Positions 1,300-17,438 of a stretch of DNA of 33,833 nucleotides are shown one piece after another; positions within the stretch are counted from its first letter, which is position 1, and the number at the start of each line of letters is the position of its first letter. The DNA lies in contig WTJY01000044.1 in the NCBI GenBank assembly GCA_011524645.1, positions 1 to 33,833 on the forward strand, written 5' to 3'. The notes below the pieces were generated by a model that was not told the DNA's origin, ran no database searches, and worked only from the letters and a program-made list of their open reading frames with translations. A program made the translations under genes and the position numbers. The DNA is from Anaerolineales bacterium. GTDB lineage: Bacteria; Chloroflexota; Anaerolineae; Promineifilales; Promineifilaceae.

Positions 1300-1827
1300 A
1301 TGTCAGAACCATTTCTTGGTGAAGTGAAAATGGTTGGTTTTAACTTCCCACCACGAGGGTGGGCGTTTTGCGATGGGCAGATTATGTCTATTGCTCAGAA
1401 CCAATCGTTGTATTCGATTTTAGGAACAATCTATGGTGGGGACGGCCGGACCACGTTCGCCTTGCCTGATTTGCGCGGCCGGACACCGATCCATGTTGGG
1501 GATGGTGGTGGATCGACGTTTCAAGAAGGGCAAAAAGGTGGAGCAGAGACGATCACCTTGACTACCGCGGAACTGCCTTCCCACAACCATACTTTTAATG
1601 TGTCTAGTTCCATCGGAGATACCGGGTTCGATGACAATATTGCCAATCAATATTATGCTGTAAGCGGGGACGGGGCTACGATGTATGGTGCGGCTACGAG
1701 TGGCGACCATTTAGCTGGTACCGCTTTAAGCTCGACTGGTGGATCGGCTGAACACAATAATATACAGCCCTATCTTGCAATTAACTTTTGCATCGCGCTA
1801 CAAGGGCTATTCCCATCACGGAACTAA
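1300..1827 (+). CDS. Tail-collar domain protein (MdpB-like), copy 1
   Basis: A 175-residue protein of the phage tail-collar family (PF07484), the family of 'microcystin-dependent protein' MdpB. The N-terminal half carries the hallmark pattern PRGWAFCDGQ, then SLYSILGTIYGGDGRTTFALPDLRGR. The middle is Gly/Ser/Thr-rich and variable with LPSHNHTF, and it ends INFCIALQGLFPSRN. No classical signal peptide is present. Family members occur in phage tails, phage-like secretion particles and as free-standing bacterial genes of unknown role. It is first of three tandem paralogues, each separated by exactly 12 nt carrying AGGAG, so one operon is very likely. No other tail genes are nearby. Confidence 0.92.
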   Translation: MSEPFLGEVKMVGFNFPPRGWAFCDGQIMSIAQNQSLYSILGTIYGGDGRTTFALPDLRGRTPIHVGDGGGSTFQEGQKGGAETITLTTAELPSHNHTFNVSSSIGDTGFDDNIANQYYAVSGDGATMYGAATSGDHLAGTALSSTGGSAEHNNIQPYLAINFCIALQGLFPSRN

Positions 1828-1839
1828 AGGAGAAATAAA

Positions 1840-2361
1840 ATGTCAGATCCATTTATTGGTGAAATTCGGATGTTTGCTGGTAACTTTGCCCCGAGAGGCT
1901 GGGCGTTTTGTGATGGCCAGCTATTGGCTGTCAGTCAAAACAATGCGCTGTTTTCATTATTTGGCACGACTTATGGAGGAGATGGTCGCACAACCTTTGG
2001 GTTGCCTGAGTTGCGCGGTCGTATTCCGATTCATGCAGGACAAGGGCCCGGGTTAAACAATTATAGGTTAGGGCAAAAGTCTGGGACTGAATTAGTGACC
2101 CTGACGCCCCAACAGATGCCTTCGCATACACATACATTTGGTGTGCGAAATGGTTTGGGGACGTCCGCTTCACCAGAAGGGCATACGTTGGCAGAATACG
2201 ATCCGACTGAGGATTTGTATACCTCTCGTACCCCTAACCAGACGGCCGCGTCTGGCACAATCGGGAACACAGGCGGGACGCAGCCTCATGGCAATATGAT
2301 GCCGTTTTTATGTGTGAATTTCATTGTTTCCCTTTTGGGTATCTATCCATCACGTCATTAA
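1840..2361 (+). CDS. Tail-collar domain protein (MdpB-like), copy 2
   Basis: A 173-residue paralogue of its two neighbours. The collar signature is conserved (PRGWAFCDGQ, then TTYGGDGRTTFGLPELRGR), followed by MPSHTHTFGVRNG and a divergent Gly/Thr-rich centre, ending FIVSLLGIYPSRH. The start ATG follows AGGAG directly after the stop of copy 1, consistent with translational coupling. The N-terminal scaffold is close to the other copies while the centre differs strongly. That is what one expects if the centre is the exposed or ligand-facing part, but that reading is inference. Confidence 0.92.
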   Translation: MSDPFIGEIRMFAGNFAPRGWAFCDGQLLAVSQNNALFSLFGTTYGGDGRTTFGLPELRGRIPIHAGQGPGLNNYRLGQKSGTELVTLTPQQMPSHTHTFGVRNGLGTSASPEGHTLAEYDPTEDLYTSRTPNQTAASGTIGNTGGTQPHGNMMPFLCVNFIVSLLGIYPSRH

Positions 2362-2373
2362 AGGAGAATTACT

Positions 2374-2871
2374 ATGTCAGAACCATTTATTGCAGAAATT
2401 CGCATTTTTGCTGGTAATTTTGCGCCACGAGGCTGGGCGTTTTGCGATGGGCAACTCTTACCCATTGCGCAAAATACCGCATTGTTCTCCCTAATTGGCA
2501 CGATCTATGGGGGGGACGGCCGGTCGACTACCGCGTTGCCCAATATGCAAGGGCGTGCGCCGATGCATTCTGGCAATGGTCCGGGATTGACCTCACGCCA
2601 GCTGGGCCAAAAAGGTGGTGTTGAATATATTACCCTCAACAGTCTACAAATTCCCGCACATAATCATTATTTGAACGCACATAATCGAGGCAATGCGGCG
2701 AATCCTACCGACGTATTTCCGGAAGATGGCCCTGGGCAAACGACTCATGATGCGACAGGTGCCGATATTGTCGGGAATACAGGTGGTAGCCAGCCTCATT
2801 TTAATATGCAGCCTTTCTTGACGATTAATTTTATTATTGCGCTCGTTGGTTTATACCCATCAAGAAATTAA
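2374..2871 (+). CDS. Tail-collar domain protein (MdpB-like), copy 3
   Basis: A 165-residue third paralogue and the last gene of the cassette. It has PRGWAFCDGQ, GTIYGGDGRSTTALPNMQGR and IPAHNHYLNAHN, and ends in FIIALVGLYPSRN. It opens MSEPFIAEIRIF, very like copies 1 and 2. The AGGAG ribosome binding site lies in a 12-nt spacer of the same length as between copies 1 and 2. A strong terminator begins about 36 nt downstream. Structural or surface function is presumed from the family; the substrate or partner is unknown. Confidence 0.92.
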   Translation: MSEPFIAEIRIFAGNFAPRGWAFCDGQLLPIAQNTALFSLIGTIYGGDGRSTTALPNMQGRAPMHSGNGPGLTSRQLGQKGGVEYITLNSLQIPAHNHYLNAHNRGNAANPTDVFPEDGPGQTTHDATGADIVGNTGGSQPHFNMQPFLTINFIIALVGLYPSRN

Positions 2872-9675: not shown

Positions 9676-10839
9676 ATGAATAAACAATCTGCAACGGTGT
9701 ATTTGCGTGAAGTCGCACACGAATGGGGTCGTTGTCTTGGGGATGCTGTCACAGCTATTGTTGGGTACGGGAGTGTGTATGAGCCTCACTTTAACGCGAA
9801 TGAATCAGACCTAAATTTATTGATTTTACTGGCGGACAACTGTGATATAGAGGCGACTCGAACTGAAACGATAGCGTTATGGGACAAACATCAAGCGTGT
9901 TTGAAACGGTCGCCGCGCATGGTCCTTGAATCGGTCTGGGCCAAGCATTTAATGTTGAATCCGGTTCTATTAGAACATTTTCGTCACACGGGTCGGCTTT
10001 TATACGGCGGGGTCCGACAGCAAGATATTCAATTACGGATTTCAATGTCACGTAAACTGTATTGGTGGCGAGAAGCTTTCTTATGTTCACAGGCTTTGTT
10101 TCAGGTTGAAAAGCGAGATGATTTGATGCGGTTGTGGCGACAAGTCAAGAAGACGGCCGAACCGATGCCAGGTGAGCTGGTCGCTAGGTTGGGTGAGATT
10201 TGGCATGCTTTCGATTTTCCTACGCCACCACATTTGCAAGCCGCACCACAAGAAGTAGCCCCATATGGGATCCAAAATTTGATCGCTTTATACAGCTCTA
10301 TTGATGTATTGGTTGTGATTTTGGGCGGCGTAGAGGACCTATTGGCGACCGATTGGGCGGCCGTAGAGGAACAGATGCGAGAGCAAGGGTATAATTCTGC
10401 ACGAGTGGCTACACCGATTCAGTTCTACTCTATGTTATCGAGTTATGACACGCTAGATGTTCAGCTTTTGACATACGATTATGTGTGGGGCATTGATATT
10501 GTGGCCGAGATTAAGCCGAAGATCGCGAACAGTTGCTATGCAGCCGCTCGATTTGCCAGCGACTTGCAAGTGAACTATTTTGCCGACTGTTACTTTCCTC
10601 ACGCGATGTCTCCGGAACACAGTTCTCATCACATCCATGAATTGCAAAATAAACTATTGAATATTCGCTTACAAAACGAAATCTTGACCAGATTCGCATT
10701 AATAGACCCTTTTGTGGCGGAGAGTGGGGCTTTGCCCGACCGTGAAGTTGCGGATAGCTTGCGCATCCGTGCGATTTATGAGCGATTAGGGGAATGGGTT
10801 GATTATTATATTGATGTGGCGCACAAATATGGGGAATGA
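9676..10839 (+). CDS. Nucleotidyltransferase-like protein
   Basis: A 387-residue soluble protein. Residues about 20-60 hold IVGYGSVYEPHFNANESDLN, then LLILL, which fits the Pol-beta-type nucleotidyltransferase pattern GS(x)n-S-D-x-[DN]-x-L; the second acidic residue is Asn here, so catalysis is uncertain. The rest is helical, with many aromatic residues and no other domain I recognise. Members of this superfamily adenylylate or uridylylate antibiotics, proteins or RNA; the substrate is unknown. It has its own strong promoter without a leader. Its stop codon lies inside a 7-bp repeat tract that also supplies the next gene's start. Confidence 0.7.
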   Translation: MNKQSATVYLREVAHEWGRCLGDAVTAIVGYGSVYEPHFNANESDLNLLILLADNCDIEATRTETIALWDKHQACLKRSPRMVLESVWAKHLMLNPVLLEHFRHTGRLLYGGVRQQDIQLRISMSRKLYWWREAFLCSQALFQVEKRDDLMRLWRQVKKTAEPMPGELVARLGEIWHAFDFPTPPHLQAAPQEVAPYGIQNLIALYSSIDVLVVILGGVEDLLATDWAAVEEQMREQGYNSARVATPIQFYSMLSSYDTLDVQLLTYDYVWGIDIVAEIKPKIANSCYAAARFASDLQVNYFADCYFPHAMSPEHSSHHIHELQNKLLNIRLQNEILTRFALIDPFVAESGALPDREVADSLRIRAIYERLGEWVDYYIDVAHKYGE

Positions 10840-10865
10840 CGAGTGACGAATAACGAATGACGAAC
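10834..10865 (+). repeat. Heptanucleotide tandem repeat (GARTRAC) across a gene junction
   Basis: Four consecutive 7-mers read GAATGAC, GAGTGAC, GAATAAC, GAATGAC from 10834 to 10861, then a partial GAAC. The first unit contains the TGA stop of the nucleotidyltransferase-like gene and the last contains the ATG of the hydrolase gene. An inverse-orientation tract of the same family lies at 12916-12968. Confidence 0.85.
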
Positions 10866-11957
10866 AATTTGGGAATAATATGGCGTTGGGGATGGCGCTT
10901 ATCGGTTTTGTGTGTGCTGTTGTGGGCGATTCAGCCCGCGCCGGTTTTGATTACATTAGGCGCGCCACAAGTTGTTGAGACGGAAATGCCGATTTTGGGG
11001 GTGCATACACGACTAACTGATGAAGTTGAAGAATGGAAGATTCAGCGCACGCTAGAAATGGTGCGAGAAATGGGGGCGACCACGATTGTTGAGTTCTTCC
11101 CGTGGGCTTATTACCATTCGTCCGATGGTGGTTTTGCGTGGGAGCACCCAGATTTGGTTGTAAACCATGCGGAAGCGCAAGGGCTGACCGTAATCGCCCG
11201 TTTGGGGTTTACACCGGATTGGGCACGGCCGGAAGATACCCCGCTTAACTATATTGATGAAAGTGCGTATGACGATTTTGCGGTTTATGCGGCCGCTTTT
11301 GCCGAGCGGTATGCGGGGCAAGTCGATTATATTATCGTTTGGAATGAGCCTAATTTGAGCTTCGAGTGGGGGTATCGGGAAACCTCGGCGGCCGATTATG
11401 TTGCCTTACTTGAAACGGTTTATACGGCCGTCAAAGCGGTTAATCCTGATATGCAGGTGTTGGGTGGTGCGCTTGCACCGACATTAGAACCGAAAGGGTC
11501 CCCGTGGGGGACAAATGATTTAATTTATTTGAATGAAATGTATGAGGCGGGCGCGGCCGATTTTATGGATGGGCTTGCGGTACACACCTATGGGCTAAAG
11601 TTTCCGGCCGATGCAGAACCCAATCCCGATGTGGTTAATTACCGGCGGGTCGAACTAATCCGAGGGGTAATGTTAAGTTATGGCGATGAACAGCCGATTC
11701 ACATTACCGAGATGGGCTGGAACGATCACCCCCGCTGGACACGTGCGGTACGGCCGGGGCAGCGGATCGCGTATACAACCGAAGCGTTGCGCTACACAGC
11801 CGCTGAACTTCCTTATGTCGAAACGGCCGCGATCTGGATGTTTCGCACACCCGCCCCGACGAAAAGCTATATGGATTACTACACGCTGGTGACACCAGAG
11901 TTTATCCCCAAACCGATTTATGGGGCGTTGCAAGAGTTGAGTAGAGAGACAGAGTAG
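10857..11957 (+). CDS. Membrane-anchored or secreted clan-A glycoside hydrolase
   Basis: A 366-residue TIM-barrel hydrolase of the GH39/GH5-like clan A. An N-terminal hydrophobic segment (about residues 9-35) acts as signal peptide or anchor. The probable acid/base is E164 in IIVWNEPNLSFEW, and the probable nucleophile is E285 in IHITEMGW. VHTYGLKFP and AIWMFRTPAP are further barrel-end motifs. The substrate is a beta-linked polysaccharide of unknown type. The ATG at 10857 lies in a GARTRAC repeat, so the first four residues (MTNN) are repeat-derived and no ribosome binding site is visible. It is 8 nt from the binding-protein gene downstream, probably an operon. Confidence 0.85.
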   Translation: MTNNLGIIWRWGWRLSVLCVLLWAIQPAPVLITLGAPQVVETEMPILGVHTRLTDEVEEWKIQRTLEMVREMGATTIVEFFPWAYYHSSDGGFAWEHPDLVVNHAEAQGLTVIARLGFTPDWARPEDTPLNYIDESAYDDFAVYAAAFAERYAGQVDYIIVWNEPNLSFEWGYRETSAADYVALLETVYTAVKAVNPDMQVLGGALAPTLEPKGSPWGTNDLIYLNEMYEAGAADFMDGLAVHTYGLKFPADAEPNPDVVNYRRVELIRGVMLSYGDEQPIHITEMGWNDHPRWTRAVRPGQRIAYTTEALRYTAAELPYVETAAIWMFRTPAPTKSYMDYYTLVTPEFIPKPIYGALQELSRETE

Positions 11958-11965
11958 AGTGGCGT

Positions 11966-12823
11966 ATGTTCAAGTGGGATGATGGTTCGAAATTTGACGC
12001 TAGGGGCTGGGGGCTGGGGGCTAGGATATTTGCGTGTTTCCCCCTTCCACCTTCCACCTTGTTTTTTGCCTTTTCCCTTTTCCCTTTTGCCTTTTCCCTT
12101 GTCGCCTGTCAGGTGAATGGTGAAACATGGACCCGAGTTGAACAGAGCGGAGTTTTGCGGGTGGGGCTTGATCCGACTTACCCACCATTCGAGAATGGGG
12201 ATAGGGGGCAGTTGGTTGGGTTAGATGTTGATTTGGCTCGTGCGTTGGGGGAGCAGTTGGGGGTCGAGATCGAGTTTGTCTATTTCGGATATGATGGGCT
12301 GTATGATGCGTTGGGGACAGGACAGGTTGATGTTTTGTTGTCTGCGCTGGTGGTTGATGTGGGGAAGACGAAGGATTTCGCTTATGGAGAGCCTTATTTT
12401 AACGCGGGGCAGTTTTTGGTAGTGCGGTCAGATACGGCCGATACGGGGAGCTTGTCTGAGATGGAGGATTTAACCGGCCGGACGGCCGCTGTGGAAATCG
12501 GTTCAGAAGGGCATGTGCAGTTGATTGAATGGCAAAGACGTGTGCCTGACCTAGAGGTGATGACATTGCCGTCGGCTGATGATGCGTTGTGGGTGGTGTT
12601 GCAAGGGGAAGCGGATGTGGCGGTGGTTGATCAGGTGAGCGGCCGGTTGTATAGGCAGAATTTTCCCGATCTTGTTCTTGTAGGGGATCCGGTTACGGTG
12701 GAACCGTATGCGGCCGTTACACGTATTGGCGATGCCATCTTGTTAAAAAAGCTGGATGAGGCGTTGGCTTCATTAGGTGAATCGGGGGAATTGGCGCTGA
12801 TTCAAGCGCGATGGCTTGATTAA
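11966..12823 (+). CDS. Solute-binding lipoprotein, family 3 (amino-acid type)
   Basis: A 285-residue extracellular solute-binding protein (SBP_bac_3). After a lipobox FSLVAC (C48) the mature part begins with VLRVGLDPTYPPFENGDRGQ and LVGLDVDLARALG. GQVDVLLSALVVD, AYGEPYFNAGQFLVV and GEADVAVVDQVSG are typical of the family. It should bind amino acids or a related small ligand outside the membrane. No permease or ATPase gene is nearby, so it may serve a remote transporter or a sensor. The leader is odd: its 47 residues are largely encoded by three different 7-bp tandem repeats (12001-12102). The last 70 nt of the gene are duplicated just downstream. Confidence 0.88.
   Translation: MFKWDDGSKFDARGWGLGARIFACFPLPPSTLFFAFSLFPFAFSLVACQVNGETWTRVEQSGVLRVGLDPTYPPFENGDRGQLVGLDVDLARALGEQLGVEIEFVYFGYDGLYDALGTGQVDVLLSALVVDVGKTKDFAYGEPYFNAGQFLVVRSDTADTGSLSEMEDLTGRTAAVEIGSEGHVQLIEWQRRVPDLEVMTLPSADDALWVVLQGEADVAVVDQVSGRLYRQNFPDLVLVGDPVTVEPYAAVTRIGDAILLKKLDEALASLGESGELALIQARWLD
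12001..12102 (+). repeat. Three heptanucleotide tandem tracts inside a signal-peptide coding region
   Basis: Tract one (12001-12025) is TAGGGGC, TGGGGGC, TGGGGGC, TAGG. Tract two (12043-12060) is CCTTCCA twice plus CCTT. Tract three (12068-12102) is GCCTTTT, CCCTTTT, CCCTTTT, GCCTTTT, CCCTTGT. Tract three encodes residues 35-46, the hydrophobic core just before the lipobox Cys. Confidence 0.9.
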
Positions 12824-12898
12824 TTGTAGATGAGGCGTTGGCTTCATTAGGTGAATCGGGGGAATTGGCGCTGATTCAGGCGCAATGGCTTGATTAAT
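12755..12898 (+). repeat. 74-bp tandem duplication of a gene 3' end
   Basis: 12755-12824 recurs at 12829-12898 with only two substitutions. The offset is 74 bp. The first copy encodes the last residues and stop of the binding protein; the second lies beyond the stop and is out of use. Its near identity suggests a recent slippage or duplication. Confidence 0.92.
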
Positions 12899-12915
12899 CA
12901 TGTTGGTATGCTACT

Positions 12916-12968
12916 CGTTGTTCGTCACTCGTCGCTCGTCATTCTCTATTCGCTATGTCACTCGTCAC
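12916..12968 (-). repeat. Heptanucleotide tandem repeat, inverse orientation
   Basis: Units CGTTGTT, CGTCACT, CGTCGCT, CGTCATT, CTCTATT, CGCTATG run from 12916 to 12957, then TCACTCGTCAC. The complement is the GAGTGAC/GAATGAC family seen at 10834. It lies in the 242-nt gap before the gene at 13066, where I see nothing else firm. Confidence 0.8.
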
Positions 12969-13065
12969 ATGCTTTCAAATATGGTAAATTGTGCTTATTC
13001 TACTTAATGCACACATACATGATGGTACAGGCTATTTCAGACAACATCACAAAGGAGATCCATCC

Positions 13066-13608
13066 ATGTCCACAACTTTTGGCCCAGATGCACATGACAA
13101 TATTCAACAAGATTTAAATTGGCTCGAACAACTCGGTCGTAAAATTCCCGGATTTAAGGGGTATTTCGAAAAGCGTGATCGCCGTGAAGCGGACCAGCTT
13201 TTGCGTCAGACAATTGCGGCCCGTTTTGAGCAGGTTCGCTTGCAGTTTTCACAAGTACATGAAGCGGTTTCGGCCGATATTATTTTGGCGATCGATTTAG
13301 CGGAACCGCTCGGCCGGATCGATACCCAGATGATGGGGCTAATCGGCAAGATTAAAGATGCCCCCCAAGGGTATGCTGGCTTTTTTGATCCGGTCAAAGT
13401 TGATGTTGCGAAGCTAGAAGCGGTTTATCAATTTGATTACACTATGATGACCCATGGTGAAGAGATCGCTTCGGCCGTACAGCAATTGGTTGATGCGGCC
13501 AATGAAGGGGCAGAACTTAAACCGTTGATGCGGACTCTCGACAAAGAATTAAAAGAAGCCCATGCCGCTTTTGCCTCGCGTCAAGAAGTACTGACCGGCA
13601 TGGGATAG
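13066..13608 (+). CDS. Hypothetical helical cytoplasmic protein
   Basis: A 180-residue protein I do not recognise. The ATG at 13066 has AAAGGAG 8 nt upstream, and the frame upstream is not protein-like. There is no signal peptide or membrane segment. The sequence is almost entirely amphipathic helix: a basic patch near residue 30 (GYFEKRDRREADQLLRQT), a Gly-Phe turn near 105 (APQGYAGFFDPVK), and a coiled C-terminus (LMRTLDKELKEAHAAFASRQ). It lies 121 nt upstream of the SPFH-HTH gene. Partnership with that protein is inference from position. Confidence 0.8.
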   Translation: MSTTFGPDAHDNIQQDLNWLEQLGRKIPGFKGYFEKRDRREADQLLRQTIAARFEQVRLQFSQVHEAVSADIILAIDLAEPLGRIDTQMMGLIGKIKDAPQGYAGFFDPVKVDVAKLEAVYQFDYTMMTHGEEIASAVQQLVDAANEGAELKPLMRTLDKELKEAHAAFASRQEVLTGMG

Positions 13609-13729
13609 TCAAAAGACTCGAGACGAGTTTTGCGTAACGACTCCCTTGCGACCCAATTACAGTTTGCAAGGGTCATTCGTCATTTTATTTGTTTATAAAT
13701 CATATTAACTTATCTATAAGGAGACCCAA

Positions 13730-14776
13730 ATGAGTCGCATTTTGGATCGTGTAATGGTGGAGCGCTGGTTGCGGGATGAAGTGGTGCAAAAAGTCCCTCA
13801 AGGTGGTCCTGGAGATATCCGCCTTGGATCACAATGTATTGTGAATCCAGGTGAAGTTGCTGTATTTGTCCGTGGTGGGGAATCGCTAGGAACATTGGAT
13901 TCAGGGCGTCACACGCTGACGACCGCCAATTTGCCCTTGATTGATCGTGTGGTGAAGGGTGTTTTTGGGGGTAAAAGCGTCTTTACGGCCGATGTTTATT
14001 TCTTAAAAACGACCGATGTCACCATGAAATGGGGAACCGCCCAGCCGATTTTGGTTGAACATCCGAACCGTGGCCCCGGTGCTTCGGCGATGGTCGGGAA
14101 TGGAACGTATGTCATTAAAGTGAAAGATCCGTGGCGCTTTTTAAACGCAATGGATGCTTTCCGCGATAGTGTGCGTGCGCCTCAATTAAAAGAACGTCTT
14201 GACCCGCTGATGGGCGTGATGATGCAGGACAAAATGAGTGAATTGGCGATCGCTAAAAACTTGGGTCCGGCGCAGTTGCAATCTTTCTCAAAAGATTTGA
14301 ACGATTTGTTGGTTGGGTTGTTGCAACCGGAATTTGATGCGATTGGCGCATCTTTGGTCGATTTCAATATTCGGATCAACTTGCACCCCAATTCGCTCGA
14401 AGTTGTGACAAAAATGGGGTATGGCACCAGCTATACACAAATGCAACAAGCGGATGCGTTCCGTGCTGCGGCCGATAATCCCGGCGGCGGTGGTGAAGGG
14501 CTGGCTGGGTTGGGGATCGGTATGATGGGTGTGAGCGCGATGAATAATCAGCAACAGCCACAGCAGATGCAACAACCGGTTCAGCAACAACCAGCGGCCG
14601 CGAGTGGCGGTGGTGCGATGCCGGACGTGATGAACGTGACCCAAGCGGCCGAAGTGTTGCAAGTTGCGATTGAAGACGTCATCGAAGCGATCCAAGCGGG
14701 CGATTTAAAAGCACGCAAAATCGGCTCCCAATATCGCATCAGTAAAGCGAACATGGAAGCGTTTTTGAATGGATAG
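13730..14776 (+). CDS. SPFH/YdjI-like protein fused to an excisionase-type HTH domain
   Basis: A 348-residue protein. Residues about 1-240 form an SPFH-like (band 7, YdjI/virion-core-like) domain: GSQCIVNPGEVAVFVRGGES, then KTTDVTMKWGT and NGTYVIKVKDPWRF. A Gly/Met/Gln-rich linker follows (NNQQQPQQMQQPVQQQPAA). The last 50 residues are a MerR/excisionase-like helix-turn-helix (HTH_17): MNVTQAAEVLQVAIEDVIEA, then LKARKIGSQYRISKANMEAF. Relatives usually end in a zinc ribbon or short oligomerisation domain, so a DNA-binding-type tail is unusual. There is no signal peptide. ATAAGGAG precedes the ATG. SPFH proteins oligomerise at membranes or in stress foci; here the HTH may bind DNA or act as a recruitment module. 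Confidence 0.85.
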   Translation: MSRILDRVMVERWLRDEVVQKVPQGGPGDIRLGSQCIVNPGEVAVFVRGGESLGTLDSGRHTLTTANLPLIDRVVKGVFGGKSVFTADVYFLKTTDVTMKWGTAQPILVEHPNRGPGASAMVGNGTYVIKVKDPWRFLNAMDAFRDSVRAPQLKERLDPLMGVMMQDKMSELAIAKNLGPAQLQSFSKDLNDLLVGLLQPEFDAIGASLVDFNIRINLHPNSLEVVTKMGYGTSYTQMQQADAFRAAADNPGGGGEGLAGLGIGMMGVSAMNNQQQPQQMQQPVQQQPAAASGGGAMPDVMNVTQAAEVLQVAIEDVIEAIQAGDLKARKIGSQYRISKANMEAFLNG

Positions 14777-14785
14777 ATTGTAAAT

Positions 14786-14870
14786 ATGAAGTATGAAATG
14801 TGAAGTATGAAAAGACTCGCGCCGAATCTTGTGGTGCGTAGCATTTCATACTTCATACTTCCTCTTTCAT
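14786..14870. repeat. Heptanucleotide repeats forming a 15-bp inverted repeat
   Basis: GAAGTAT, GAAATGT, GAAGTAT (14788-14808) and their complement ATTTCAT, ACTTCAT, ACTTCCT, CTTTCAT (14843-14870) face each other. 14786-14800 and 14842-14856 are perfect 15-bp inverted arms around a 41-nt loop. The hairpin lies between the SPFH-HTH gene and the nuclease gene. Confidence 0.88.
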
Positions 14871-14891
14871 GCTTTGGTAGATAGAGTGCCT

Positions 14892-17438
14892 ATGAAGATG
14901 CGATTTGCATGGCTTGTTGGTTGTATTTTGTTGTTGTGGGGAGTTGTGCCGGCCGTTGCACAGGAATCTGATGGTCCATTTTTGATTAGTGAAGTGATGT
15001 TTAGCCCACGTGGGTTAGATGCGGATGAAGAGTGGATAGAGCTGGTTTATTTGGGGAGCGAACCGCTTGATTTGACCGGATATCGAATCGGTGATGAGGA
15101 AACGGCCGGTGGGGGAGAAGGCATCTATCTTTTTCCCGAAGGCTTTTTGATTCAGCCTAATTCCGTGATTGTGGTGGCGCAGTCGGCCGTTGCATTTGCG
15201 GATCGCTATGGCTTTGCACCTGACTTTGAATTGCGTGATACGGATAGCACCGTGCCGGATATGCGTCAATCTTTGTCTGATGCGGAAGGGGAGATTACCC
15301 TGTCGAATAGTGGCGATGAAGTTATTTTGCTCAGTTCGAATGGGACGATATTAGATGCGGTTAATTATGGGGATCGGGATCGCTTTTTCGCGCCAGCAGT
15401 CGATATAGACACGCTACAGACAGGGGAAAGCATTGTGCGCCAACCGACCACTTGTGACCGAGATTCGGCCGATGATTGGGCTATTGTGTCCAATCCGACA
15501 CCGGGACGGGCCGACTTAGCGGGATGTAGTGGGCCTGTTGCATCTGATACAACTTCGTCTTCAAATACATCTTCTATTTCACTTAATGATTTTGGGAATT
15601 ATCCTTCTATTGGTTCGATACAGGGGGATTGGAACTTTGGCTCGGCCGACGGGGAGCGGGTAACCACGATCGGTGTGGTGACCGCCCTATTCCAAGACAA
15701 CAATGCGGCTGGTGAAACATTTTTTAATGTCTTTATTCAGGACTATGGGGATGGAAATAGCCAAACCTCAGATGGGATTCCGATCTTTTTGGCCTTTTCC
15801 CGCCCTCAGGTTGAAGTGGGAGACGTGGTTCGTGTAAGTGGTGAGGTGGTTGAATACCATGAACTGACCGAATTTACTCAAGATGGTTTGGAAATCGAGC
15901 GGTTAGATAGCGACGCGCCGTTGCCAGAAGCGGTCGCATGGCCGGTGAACGGGTGTGCCGAAATCGATTGTGAAACAGTAGAGAGCATGCGTGTGGCGGT
16001 CGGTCCGGCCGTGGTCGTCGGGCCAAGCTTTGAAACAGCGAGCGGCTGTGGCTTTTCCGTCATGCCGGTTGCGGCCGGTGTTTATCGGATTATCCGCCAT
16101 TCTGATGACACCGATATCCGGCCGATTTTGCCGGTGTTGTCCCCCAACGACAACGCATGTGACGAACTTCCCGTACTCAAGGTTGGGGATGTCGTTGATG
16201 GTTTGGTCGGACCGCTGATTTACACTTTCGAGCAGTTTCGACTGGTGCCCGAATCCTTAGATACGCTAGAAATCACATCTGTGCCGTTGCCAACATTGCC
16301 AGCACCACCCGTTTTGCAAGCGGGTGAGATTAGCGTCATTTCATATAACGTCGAAAACTATTTTGATTTGTTCGATGATACAGGGAGTGATGCCGAGCCG
16401 AAACCATCGGCCGAACAGCTGGAGATTAAGCGGATCAAGTTGGCATCCGTGGTGCATGAAGTGGCGGGATGCCCCACGATGATCGCGATTCAAGAGGTCG
16501 AGAATGAAGGGCTGTTGCTGGAGTTGGCTGATGAAATTGCACCACTTTGTGGTTTTCTCTATCAAGTTAACCATTTAGAAAGTGATGATGGCCGTGGTAT
16601 TGATAATGCCTTACTCGTGAATCCCGATGTGGTCACGATTAATGATGTGTCGTTGGAGCAACTTTGTCAGGAAATCGATACCGGTATCGATCCTATGGCC
16701 TGTCCATCTGGTGAAGACCTGCTGTTTTCTCGGCCGCCGTTTCGGGTTGATGCCGAGGCTTATGGACGGCCGATCACCGTTTACGTCAACCACTTTAAAT
16801 CGAAGCGGGGTGATCCGGCCGAGACATTACAACGCCGGGTTGCACAAGCGGCTCATGTGGAATCGTTGGTTGCCGATCAACTGGCTGTGAACCCAGATGC
16901 TTTGGTCATAGTCTTGGGGGATCTAAATGATTATGCGGACTCGCCGCCGCTACAGGTTTTGACAGAATCGGGTGTGTTGACCAACGTGTTACGTGATCTG
17001 CCAGAAGAAACGCAGTACAGTTTTAATTTCAGTGGGGCGGCGCAGTTAATTGATGGGTTGCTGCTGTCACCGGCCGGTTTATCCGTATTGCAAGAGACAC
17101 AAATTTTTCATGTAAATGCTGATTTCCCAGAAGCGTGGAGTGAAGATTTTGGTGAATATCGGGTGTATCGAGCGGCCGATCATGATATTCCGATGGTGGT
17201 TTTGCAGGTGAGCGGGGAGGCTGATGTGGAATCGACCGGAGACTCTGCTGTGCAAATCGAGGCTGCCCCCACCGATTCGGCACAAGACCTAGAACTAGAA
17301 TCATACGCGACACCGGAAGAACCACTGGTTGATTTGTCGAACGCTCGCGAGGGGGGAAACAATACTTGGTTGGTCATTGTCTCATCAATGATCGCCTTGA
17401 TCGGCGCGGTTGCATCCCGTGTGTGGCGCAGATTGTAA
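14892..17438 (+). CDS. Secreted, membrane-anchored lamin-tail / endonuclease-exonuclease-phosphatase protein
   Basis: An 848-residue extracellular nuclease of ExeM/LTD-EEP type. Signal peptide MKMRFAWLVGCILLLWGVVP ends before AVAQE. A lamin-tail domain spans about 28-200 (LISEVMFSPRG, EEWIELVYLG, LTGYRIGDE), then a Ser/Thr linker and an OB-fold-like segment (about 230-450). The EEP catalytic domain spans about 478-775: ISVISYNVENYFD, AIQEVENEG, VNHFKSKRGD, VLGDLNDYADSP and AADHDIPMV hold the metal and catalytic Asn, Glu, Asp and His residues. The end (TWLVIVSSMIALIGAVASRV, then WRRL) is a C-terminal membrane anchor. I start at 14892 because it begins the signal peptide. It probably degrades extracellular DNA for phosphate or in biofilm. 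Confidence 0.92.
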   Translation: MKMRFAWLVGCILLLWGVVPAVAQESDGPFLISEVMFSPRGLDADEEWIELVYLGSEPLDLTGYRIGDEETAGGGEGIYLFPEGFLIQPNSVIVVAQSAVAFADRYGFAPDFELRDTDSTVPDMRQSLSDAEGEITLSNSGDEVILLSSNGTILDAVNYGDRDRFFAPAVDIDTLQTGESIVRQPTTCDRDSADDWAIVSNPTPGRADLAGCSGPVASDTTSSSNTSSISLNDFGNYPSIGSIQGDWNFGSADGERVTTIGVVTALFQDNNAAGETFFNVFIQDYGDGNSQTSDGIPIFLAFSRPQVEVGDVVRVSGEVVEYHELTEFTQDGLEIERLDSDAPLPEAVAWPVNGCAEIDCETVESMRVAVGPAVVVGPSFETASGCGFSVMPVAAGVYRIIRHSDDTDIRPILPVLSPNDNACDELPVLKVGDVVDGLVGPLIYTFEQFRLVPESLDTLEITSVPLPTLPAPPVLQAGEISVISYNVENYFDLFDDTGSDAEPKPSAEQLEIKRIKLASVVHEVAGCPTMIAIQEVENEGLLLELADEIAPLCGFLYQVNHLESDDGRGIDNALLVNPDVVTINDVSLEQLCQEIDTGIDPMACPSGEDLLFSRPPFRVDAEAYGRPITVYVNHFKSKRGDPAETLQRRVAQAAHVESLVADQLAVNPDALVIVLGDLNDYADSPPLQVLTESGVLTNVLRDLPEETQYSFNFSGAAQLIDGLLLSPAGLSVLQETQIFHVNADFPEAWSEDFGEYRVYRAADHDIPMVVLQVSGEADVESTGDSAVQIEAAPTDSAQDLELESYATPEEPLVDLSNAREGGNNTWLVIVSSMIALIGAVASRVWRRL

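Follow-up and report, generated by a model that had tools for sequence, protein, structure and literature searches.

The stretch of DNA analyzed here (hereafter, the window) is 33,833 nucleotides long and represents contig WTJY01000044.1 (C66 in our labels) of an Anaerolineales bacterium of the family Promineifilaceae, whose assembly (GCA_011524645.1; 5.8 Mb in 534 contigs) is referred to below as G000. Among the named loci, the best protein matches were with records of Chloroflexaceae and other Chloroflexi, at 57-65% identity. Between 10.83 and 14.87 kb, the window carries seven short tandem tracts that differ in the sequence of their units and share a period of exactly seven nucleotides, located within and between ordinary genes, that is, genes encoding a SBP_bac_3 solute-binding protein (SBP; Pfam assignment), an SPFH/Band 7 protein with a C-terminal helix-turn-helix, and an exo/endonuclease-phosphatase with a lamin-tail domain. 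The tracts were identified by a self-match scan over lags of 2 to 21 nucleotides, with Tandem Repeats Finder (TRF) run in parallel and a score of 8 or more as the threshold for a lag-7 tract. The features, with the methods that returned them, are the following:

10834..10864, + strand: GARTRAC tract, 4.4 copies, purine-rich on this strand (TRF, lag-7, open reading frames, ORFs)
11999..12022, + strand: GGGGGCT tract, 3.4 copies, within the 5' part of the SBP ORF (TRF, lag-7)
12038..12060, + strand: CCTTCCA tract, 3.3 copies, pyrimidine-rich (TRF, lag-7)
12064..12110, + strand: CCCTTTT/GCCTTTT tract, 5-6 copies, within ORF 11966-12823 (TRF, lag-7)
12913..12941, + strand: inverse pyrimidine-rich tract, GTCRYTC (GTCAYTC-type), 3' of the SBP gene (TRF, lag-7)
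13671..13686, + strand: GTCATTC/GTCATTT pair, two units (under threshold in TRF and lag-7; not above chance alone)
14782..14811, + strand: GAAGTAT purine-rich 5' hairpin arm, between the SPFH gene and the one that follows (TRF, lag-7, fold)
14812..14844, + strand: hairpin loop/inner stem (RNA fold)
14845..14861, + strand: TTCATAC pyrimidine-rich 3' hairpin arm (TRF, lag-7, fold)

The seven lag-7 spans (10837-10864, 11999-12022, 12038-12060, 12064-12110, 12922-12940, 14785-14811, and 14845-14861) coincide with the places returned by TRF, and the remaining 30 kb of the window contain none. Seven was also the sole basic period to give tracts in the window; periods 4-6 and 8-13 gave none at a score of 12, and the matches at periods 14 and 21 are harmonics of the period-7 tracts. 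For comparison, 100 dinucleotide shuffles provided a mean of 0.63 tracts for the window and 0.10 for the 4-kb region. The first-pass annotation of this DNA had proposed at least six strict 7-bp tracts within 4 kb, made of different words with one period, and both statements stand; the GTCATTC/GTCATTT pair that it also listed near 13673 does not, and the hairpin architecture of the otherwise real tracts had escaped it. Specifically, the region 14780-14870 folds into a very stable hairpin (RNA fold -34.1 kcal/mol, z -7.6 vs. shuffles) of which the GAAGTAT and TTCATAC tracts are the arms. The CCTTCCA tract is, by inspection, partly complementary to the GGGGGCT tract in 7-nt register, and folding at 12038..12060 is weak (z +1.8). 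The tract at 12913 adjoins a 74-bp tandem duplication (12755-12898, 97% matches) of the 3' end of the SBP gene, including its stop codon.

The excess of period-7 tracts extends across the genome, far above chance. The lag-7 scan of G000 covered about 750 kb in pieces. In 543 kb of contigs selected for heptamer-pattern matches, there were 72 period-7 tracts compared to no more than 11 at each of the other basic periods and 0 in Markov-shuffled copies, while 170 kb of unselected contigs gave 12, vs. at most 4 for each of the periods 4-6 and 8-13 and 8 for period 15, making seven the commonest tandem period tested there as well. The expectation that lag-7 tracts would recur elsewhere in the genome, and more often than in shuffled sequence, was thus borne out. 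Further, the pattern GAATGACGAATGAC, with up to two mismatches, occurred 214 times in the genome vs. 21 times for a reversed-pattern control. At least eight unit words were seen in G000 (GARTGAC, GAAGTAT, AGAGAGT/AGAGTAA, AAAAGGG, GATTTTA, GATTAGT, AATGGTA, GGCTGAA, GGGGGCT), all with the 7-nt period. The loci are spread almost randomly (mean 0.46 per 4-kb bin, variance 0.53, maximum 3, i.e., near Poisson), so the window region, with 3-4 loci, is a mild cluster that is near ordinary for G000. The clustering is thus modest, and a special hotspot was rejected on this basis. G000 also carries other dispersed repeats unrelated to heptads (e.g., the 14-mers CAATACCTTCGCCA and CGTGGGAATGACAA, found at 10-25 places within the 750 kb).

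Similar to the STRR (short tandemly repeated repetitive) sequences and other heptanucleotide long simple sequence repeats (LSSRs), the tracts of G000 are mainly intergenic: 69 of the 85 placed tracts (about 81%) were outside called genes, even though called genes make up 85% of the DNA (based on our own simple gene caller, not a curated annotation). Most lie between co-directional genes and seldom between divergent ones, and divergent gaps were under-used in each of four genomes (8, 1, 8, and 2 tracts). In places, tracts reach into genes and supply signals at their ends. For instance, the tract at 10834 contains both the TGA at which the upstream ORF stops (10837-10839) and the ATG of the next one (10857), and several genes terminate within GARTGAC tracts (e.g., with VTNDE followed by the stop codon). 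The leader of the SBP in the window is encoded by the tracts at 12.00-12.11 kb and ends in the lipobox SLVAC; within it, the 12064-12110 tract encodes FFAFSLFPFAFSLVAC, that is, the hydrophobic core of the signal peptide and the approach to the lipobox of the lipoprotein ORF 11966-12823. The SBP leaders of the related genomes G001 (ISRKYEVRSPKWRTCYFILITSFFLLFSGC) and G002 are encoded by their own, different heptad hairpin, and that of G003 is ordinary and non-heptad (MSKISQWVSLLILGMLFAVGLSGC). Based on predicted start codons, heptads thus appear to encode the lipoprotein signal peptides of the same gene in two separate lineages, and two genes of genome G020 have heptad-encoded hydrophobic N-termini as well. 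By serving as start or stop codons and as lipoprotein signal peptides, heptads illustrate a route by which repeats can contribute to proteins. Elsewhere in the window (1300-2871), three successive ORFs of 165-175 aa, apparent paralogues with the common start MSEPFxxEIRxFAGNFAPRGWAFCDGQ, appear to resemble phage tail-collar type proteins.

Many tracts are paired, and the pairs have a polarity. A complementary partner within 200 bp was found for 28% of the tracts in G000, 67% in G020, 24% in Calothrix, and 11% in Chloroflexaceae Prado088, compared to about 2% expected from random stretches of the same genomes. Counted by arms, the purine-rich arm came first in G000 (24), G020 (18), G042, G014, and G071 (6 each), G007 (1), and G076 (2), and the reverse order was never seen, with the qualification that both arms of one hairpin may count and that hairpins belonging to the same family do not represent independent cases. 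An additional search for hairpins gave a ratio of purine-first to reverse of 9 to 1 in G000 and 21 to 0 in G020.

Among 52 genomes of the family, GARTGAC arrays were found in 19, RAAAAGG arrays in five (with G000 dominant), and GRTATGA arrays in three, one of which (G014) has 108. GARTGAC is also patchy within genera, with 54 matches in G000 and none in G001-G004, and with the same contrast between G020 (present) and G058 (absent) and between G064 (present) and G021 (absent). That is, the word families are species-specific and patchy, with GARTGAC, GGTATGA, and AAAAGG each prevailing in different species; the period is fixed, the word is not. The reversed control pattern (CAGTRAG-type) was itself abundant in G017, G056, G057, and G075, which suggests yet other heptamer words in these four genomes. 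Seven contigs of G076 (C20, C22, C30, C46, C71, C141, and C157) begin with a heptamer array or have one within about 110 bases of their start; therefore, short-read assemblies probably break at such arrays and undercount them.

Beyond the family, the exact 21-base GARTRAC pattern was found, among the matches listed, in Verrucomicrobia, Cyanobacteria, Bacteroidetes, Planctomycetes, Nitrospirae, Acidobacteria, and others. Period 7 is also dominant in G020, Chloroflexaceae Prado088, and Calothrix, and both Calothrix NIES-22 (68 period-7 tracts in 200 kb) and Prado088 (54 in 124 kb) are richer than G000. The unit GATTTTR is common to Calothrix, Richelia, and Prado088, and GATTTTA tracts occur in G000; the other words differ. 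In Prado088 and Calothrix, single arrays switch word while keeping the 7-base step. The likeness to cyanobacterial STRR heptamers that the first-pass annotation had pointed out is therefore real, and a mechanism in common with these repeats may be involved.

Comparisons of orthologous sites reveal how quickly the tracts change. These comparisons are at the species level, with the nearest genomes being about 80% identical, so that insertion points and copy-number steps are beyond their reach. Across the genus, the SBP gene, an unnamed gene, and the SPFH gene stay in this order, and the tracts of the window were absent from the matching junctions of G001-G005 and G011, as far as each junction was read. 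The SBP junction of G001 and G002 holds a different heptad hairpin (AAGTAGAAAGTATGAAGTRAGAAGT ... ACTTCATACTTATTACTTCTTTCTTCC), which is 96% identical between the two genomes compared to 82-84% for its flanks (G001 L239:9269-9378 and its G002 counterpart in L242); either constraint or recent exchange could account for this difference. Between the next two genes, G002 carries an additional segment (about 100 bp; inverted arms of the TTAGCTA type), which is absent in G001. In another genus, a 20-copy GAATGAC array of G007 had no counterpart at the matching place in G071, G072, and G076. Hence, tracts differ between related species up to presence/absence, and with orthologous junctions empty or differently filled, their turnover between species is fast.

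The explanation that we favor, and consider fairly probable, is that the tracts are long simple sequence repeats of the STRR/LSSR type that originate by slippage, keep a constant unit length of 7 nt, and become established at gene junctions, in some cases as hairpin stems. Under this hypothesis, replication slippage would create tandem heptamers and then lengthen or shorten them, while point mutation and further slippage would alter the word and leave the 7-nt step intact. Tracts would survive only where 7-nt insertions or deletions do little harm. Such places would be junctions between genes, except for divergent promoter regions, and the ends of genes, where tracts would come to serve as start or stop codons or as signal peptides. 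Part of the tracts would arise in, or as, hairpin stems, with complementary words on the two arms and the purine-rich arm first. Slippage is most likely the motor of this process, and the reason for seven may be the contact length of the polymerase, a published idea. Three points weigh against this explanation. The comparisons available are between species, and slippage itself was not seen; slippage alone leaves the number seven (vs. 5, 6, or 8), the pairing of the hairpins, and their polarity unexplained; and G020 has 150-bp elements with a common interior, meaning that at least the G020 family spreads by copying, not only by slippage.

The latter elements bring up the alternative that the hairpins are small non-autonomous mobile elements, similar to miniature inverted-repeat transposable elements (MITEs), REPINs, or small dispersed repeats (SDRs), with inverted ends built of heptamers and spread by a transposase, which we find possible but unlikely. 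The hairpins of G020, about 130-190 bp long with inverted heptad arms, have interiors that are alike (mean local score 16.6 vs. 8.3 shuffled) and look like a dispersed family, and the empty orthologous sites described above are in line with mobility. In G000, however, the hairpin loops have no common sequence (6.3 vs. 5.7 shuffled) and do not look like such a family, and the majority of tracts lack an inverted partner; that is, sequence in common beyond the arms, as in MITEs and REPINs, is found in the G020 family only. Further, many unrelated words with one period are not expected of a single element family. A Y1 transposase (RAYT type) had three weak matches in G000 and none in G076, which is rich in heptads, including GARTGAC; therefore, it does not seem to be required, and its role as the cause is not supported.

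It is also conceivable, although we regard it as doubtful, that the tracts have a function as RNA or DNA signals. As such, hairpins between tandem genes might serve in termination, processing, or translational coupling, or the repeats might bind a protein. The purine-arm-first polarity resembles that of a bidirectional terminator, hairpins that lack heptads show the same tendency (33 purine-first vs. 15 reverse), the 14780-14870 hairpin is very stable, and the G001/G002 hairpin is more conserved than its flanks. On the other hand, no strict intrinsic terminator (a GC-rich hairpin followed by a T run) was called at the tracts within 10500-15300, an Rfam scan returned no family at the tracts, and orthologues of the same genus keep the genes and lack the tracts. 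Relative to the starts and ends of genes, single tracts favor neither strand, which speaks against a role of the sense RNA, and a sense-strand RNA signal was rejected for this reason. For the heptamers of Xanthomonas and Nostoc, too, the published study was unable to assign a function in gene regulation (PMC4692102).

A more speculative idea, to which we would assign a similarly small chance, is that gene junctions receive their heptad-armed hairpins from a dedicated activity that is transferable and works in intrinsic steps of 7 nt (e.g., a polymerase or template switching on hairpins). The machinery would then set both the step and the purine-first polarity, with the word varying by species, and a purine-then-pyrimidine stretch would translate into a charged and then a hydrophobic segment, hence the repeated use as signal peptides. 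Loss of mismatch repair permitting repeat expansion could theoretically provide the patchy distribution between sister species, but is highly improbable: mutS1 was found above the cut-off in the heptad-rich genomes G000, G007, G020, G071, and G076, arguing against such loss as the cause, and loops of 7 nt usually exceed what MutS repairs. G-quadruplex formation as a common principle was rejected, as most of the words are unable to form one. Finally, an artefact of chance or base composition has essentially no probability left, having nothing in its favor and being refuted by the shuffles (about 0.1 tract vs. 7 in the region and 0 vs. 72 in the 543 kb) and by the reversed pattern (21 vs. 214).

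It is important to note how these tracts relate to heptamer repeats described previously. According to the summary in PMC4679880 (citing Mrazek 2007; see also PMC4692102), heptanucleotides are the most abundant category of LSSRs in most genomes surveyed, a pattern attributed to slippage across the approximately 7 nt contacted by the polymerase. The tracts reported here share with the repeats of filamentous cyanobacteria (Calothrix, Nostoc) and Xanthomonas, such as GGGGA(C/T)T in Nostoc and GGGAATC in Xanthomonas, the 7-nt period, degenerate units, many loci per genome, and foldable inverted copies, as well as their intergenic location near ORF ends and their scarcity between divergent genes (PMC4692102). 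They differ in belonging to another phylum, in having many words per genome, most of which do not form G-quadruplexes, and in the polarity of their hairpins, with the purine arm almost always first in Chloroflexota and no purine bias in Calothrix (7 to 7 by purine content). In the P6b stem of the Nostoc tRNA-Leu(UAA) intron, the arms are likewise complementary heptamers of one of two words, so that the word class is swapped and the structure kept (PMC4476775); P6b, however, is a single intron locus as opposed to the many intergenic loci seen here. The TAACTGA direct repeats of Beggiatoaceae are also intergenic heptamers with a patchy distribution over phyla, but consist of one word, are located mostly just upstream of start codons, and have almost no inverted copies (PMC4679880). 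The likeness to MITEs, REPINs, and small dispersed repeats consists of short, palindromic, dispersed units, including a family with common interior in G020, while the unrelated loops and many unpaired tracts of G000 set the latter apart.

Within the set of papers searched, we found none joining heptanucleotide tandem repeats with Chloroflexi. The preference for exactly seven bases in bacterial genomes with longer simple repeats represents a long-standing question, and a family of species with a changing word, a constant step of seven, and empty sister sites allows this question to be taken to close strains and comparative genetics. In conclusion, the feature described here belongs to the known kind of heptanucleotide repeats, in this case with many words per genome, fast turnover between species, and local uptake into genes.

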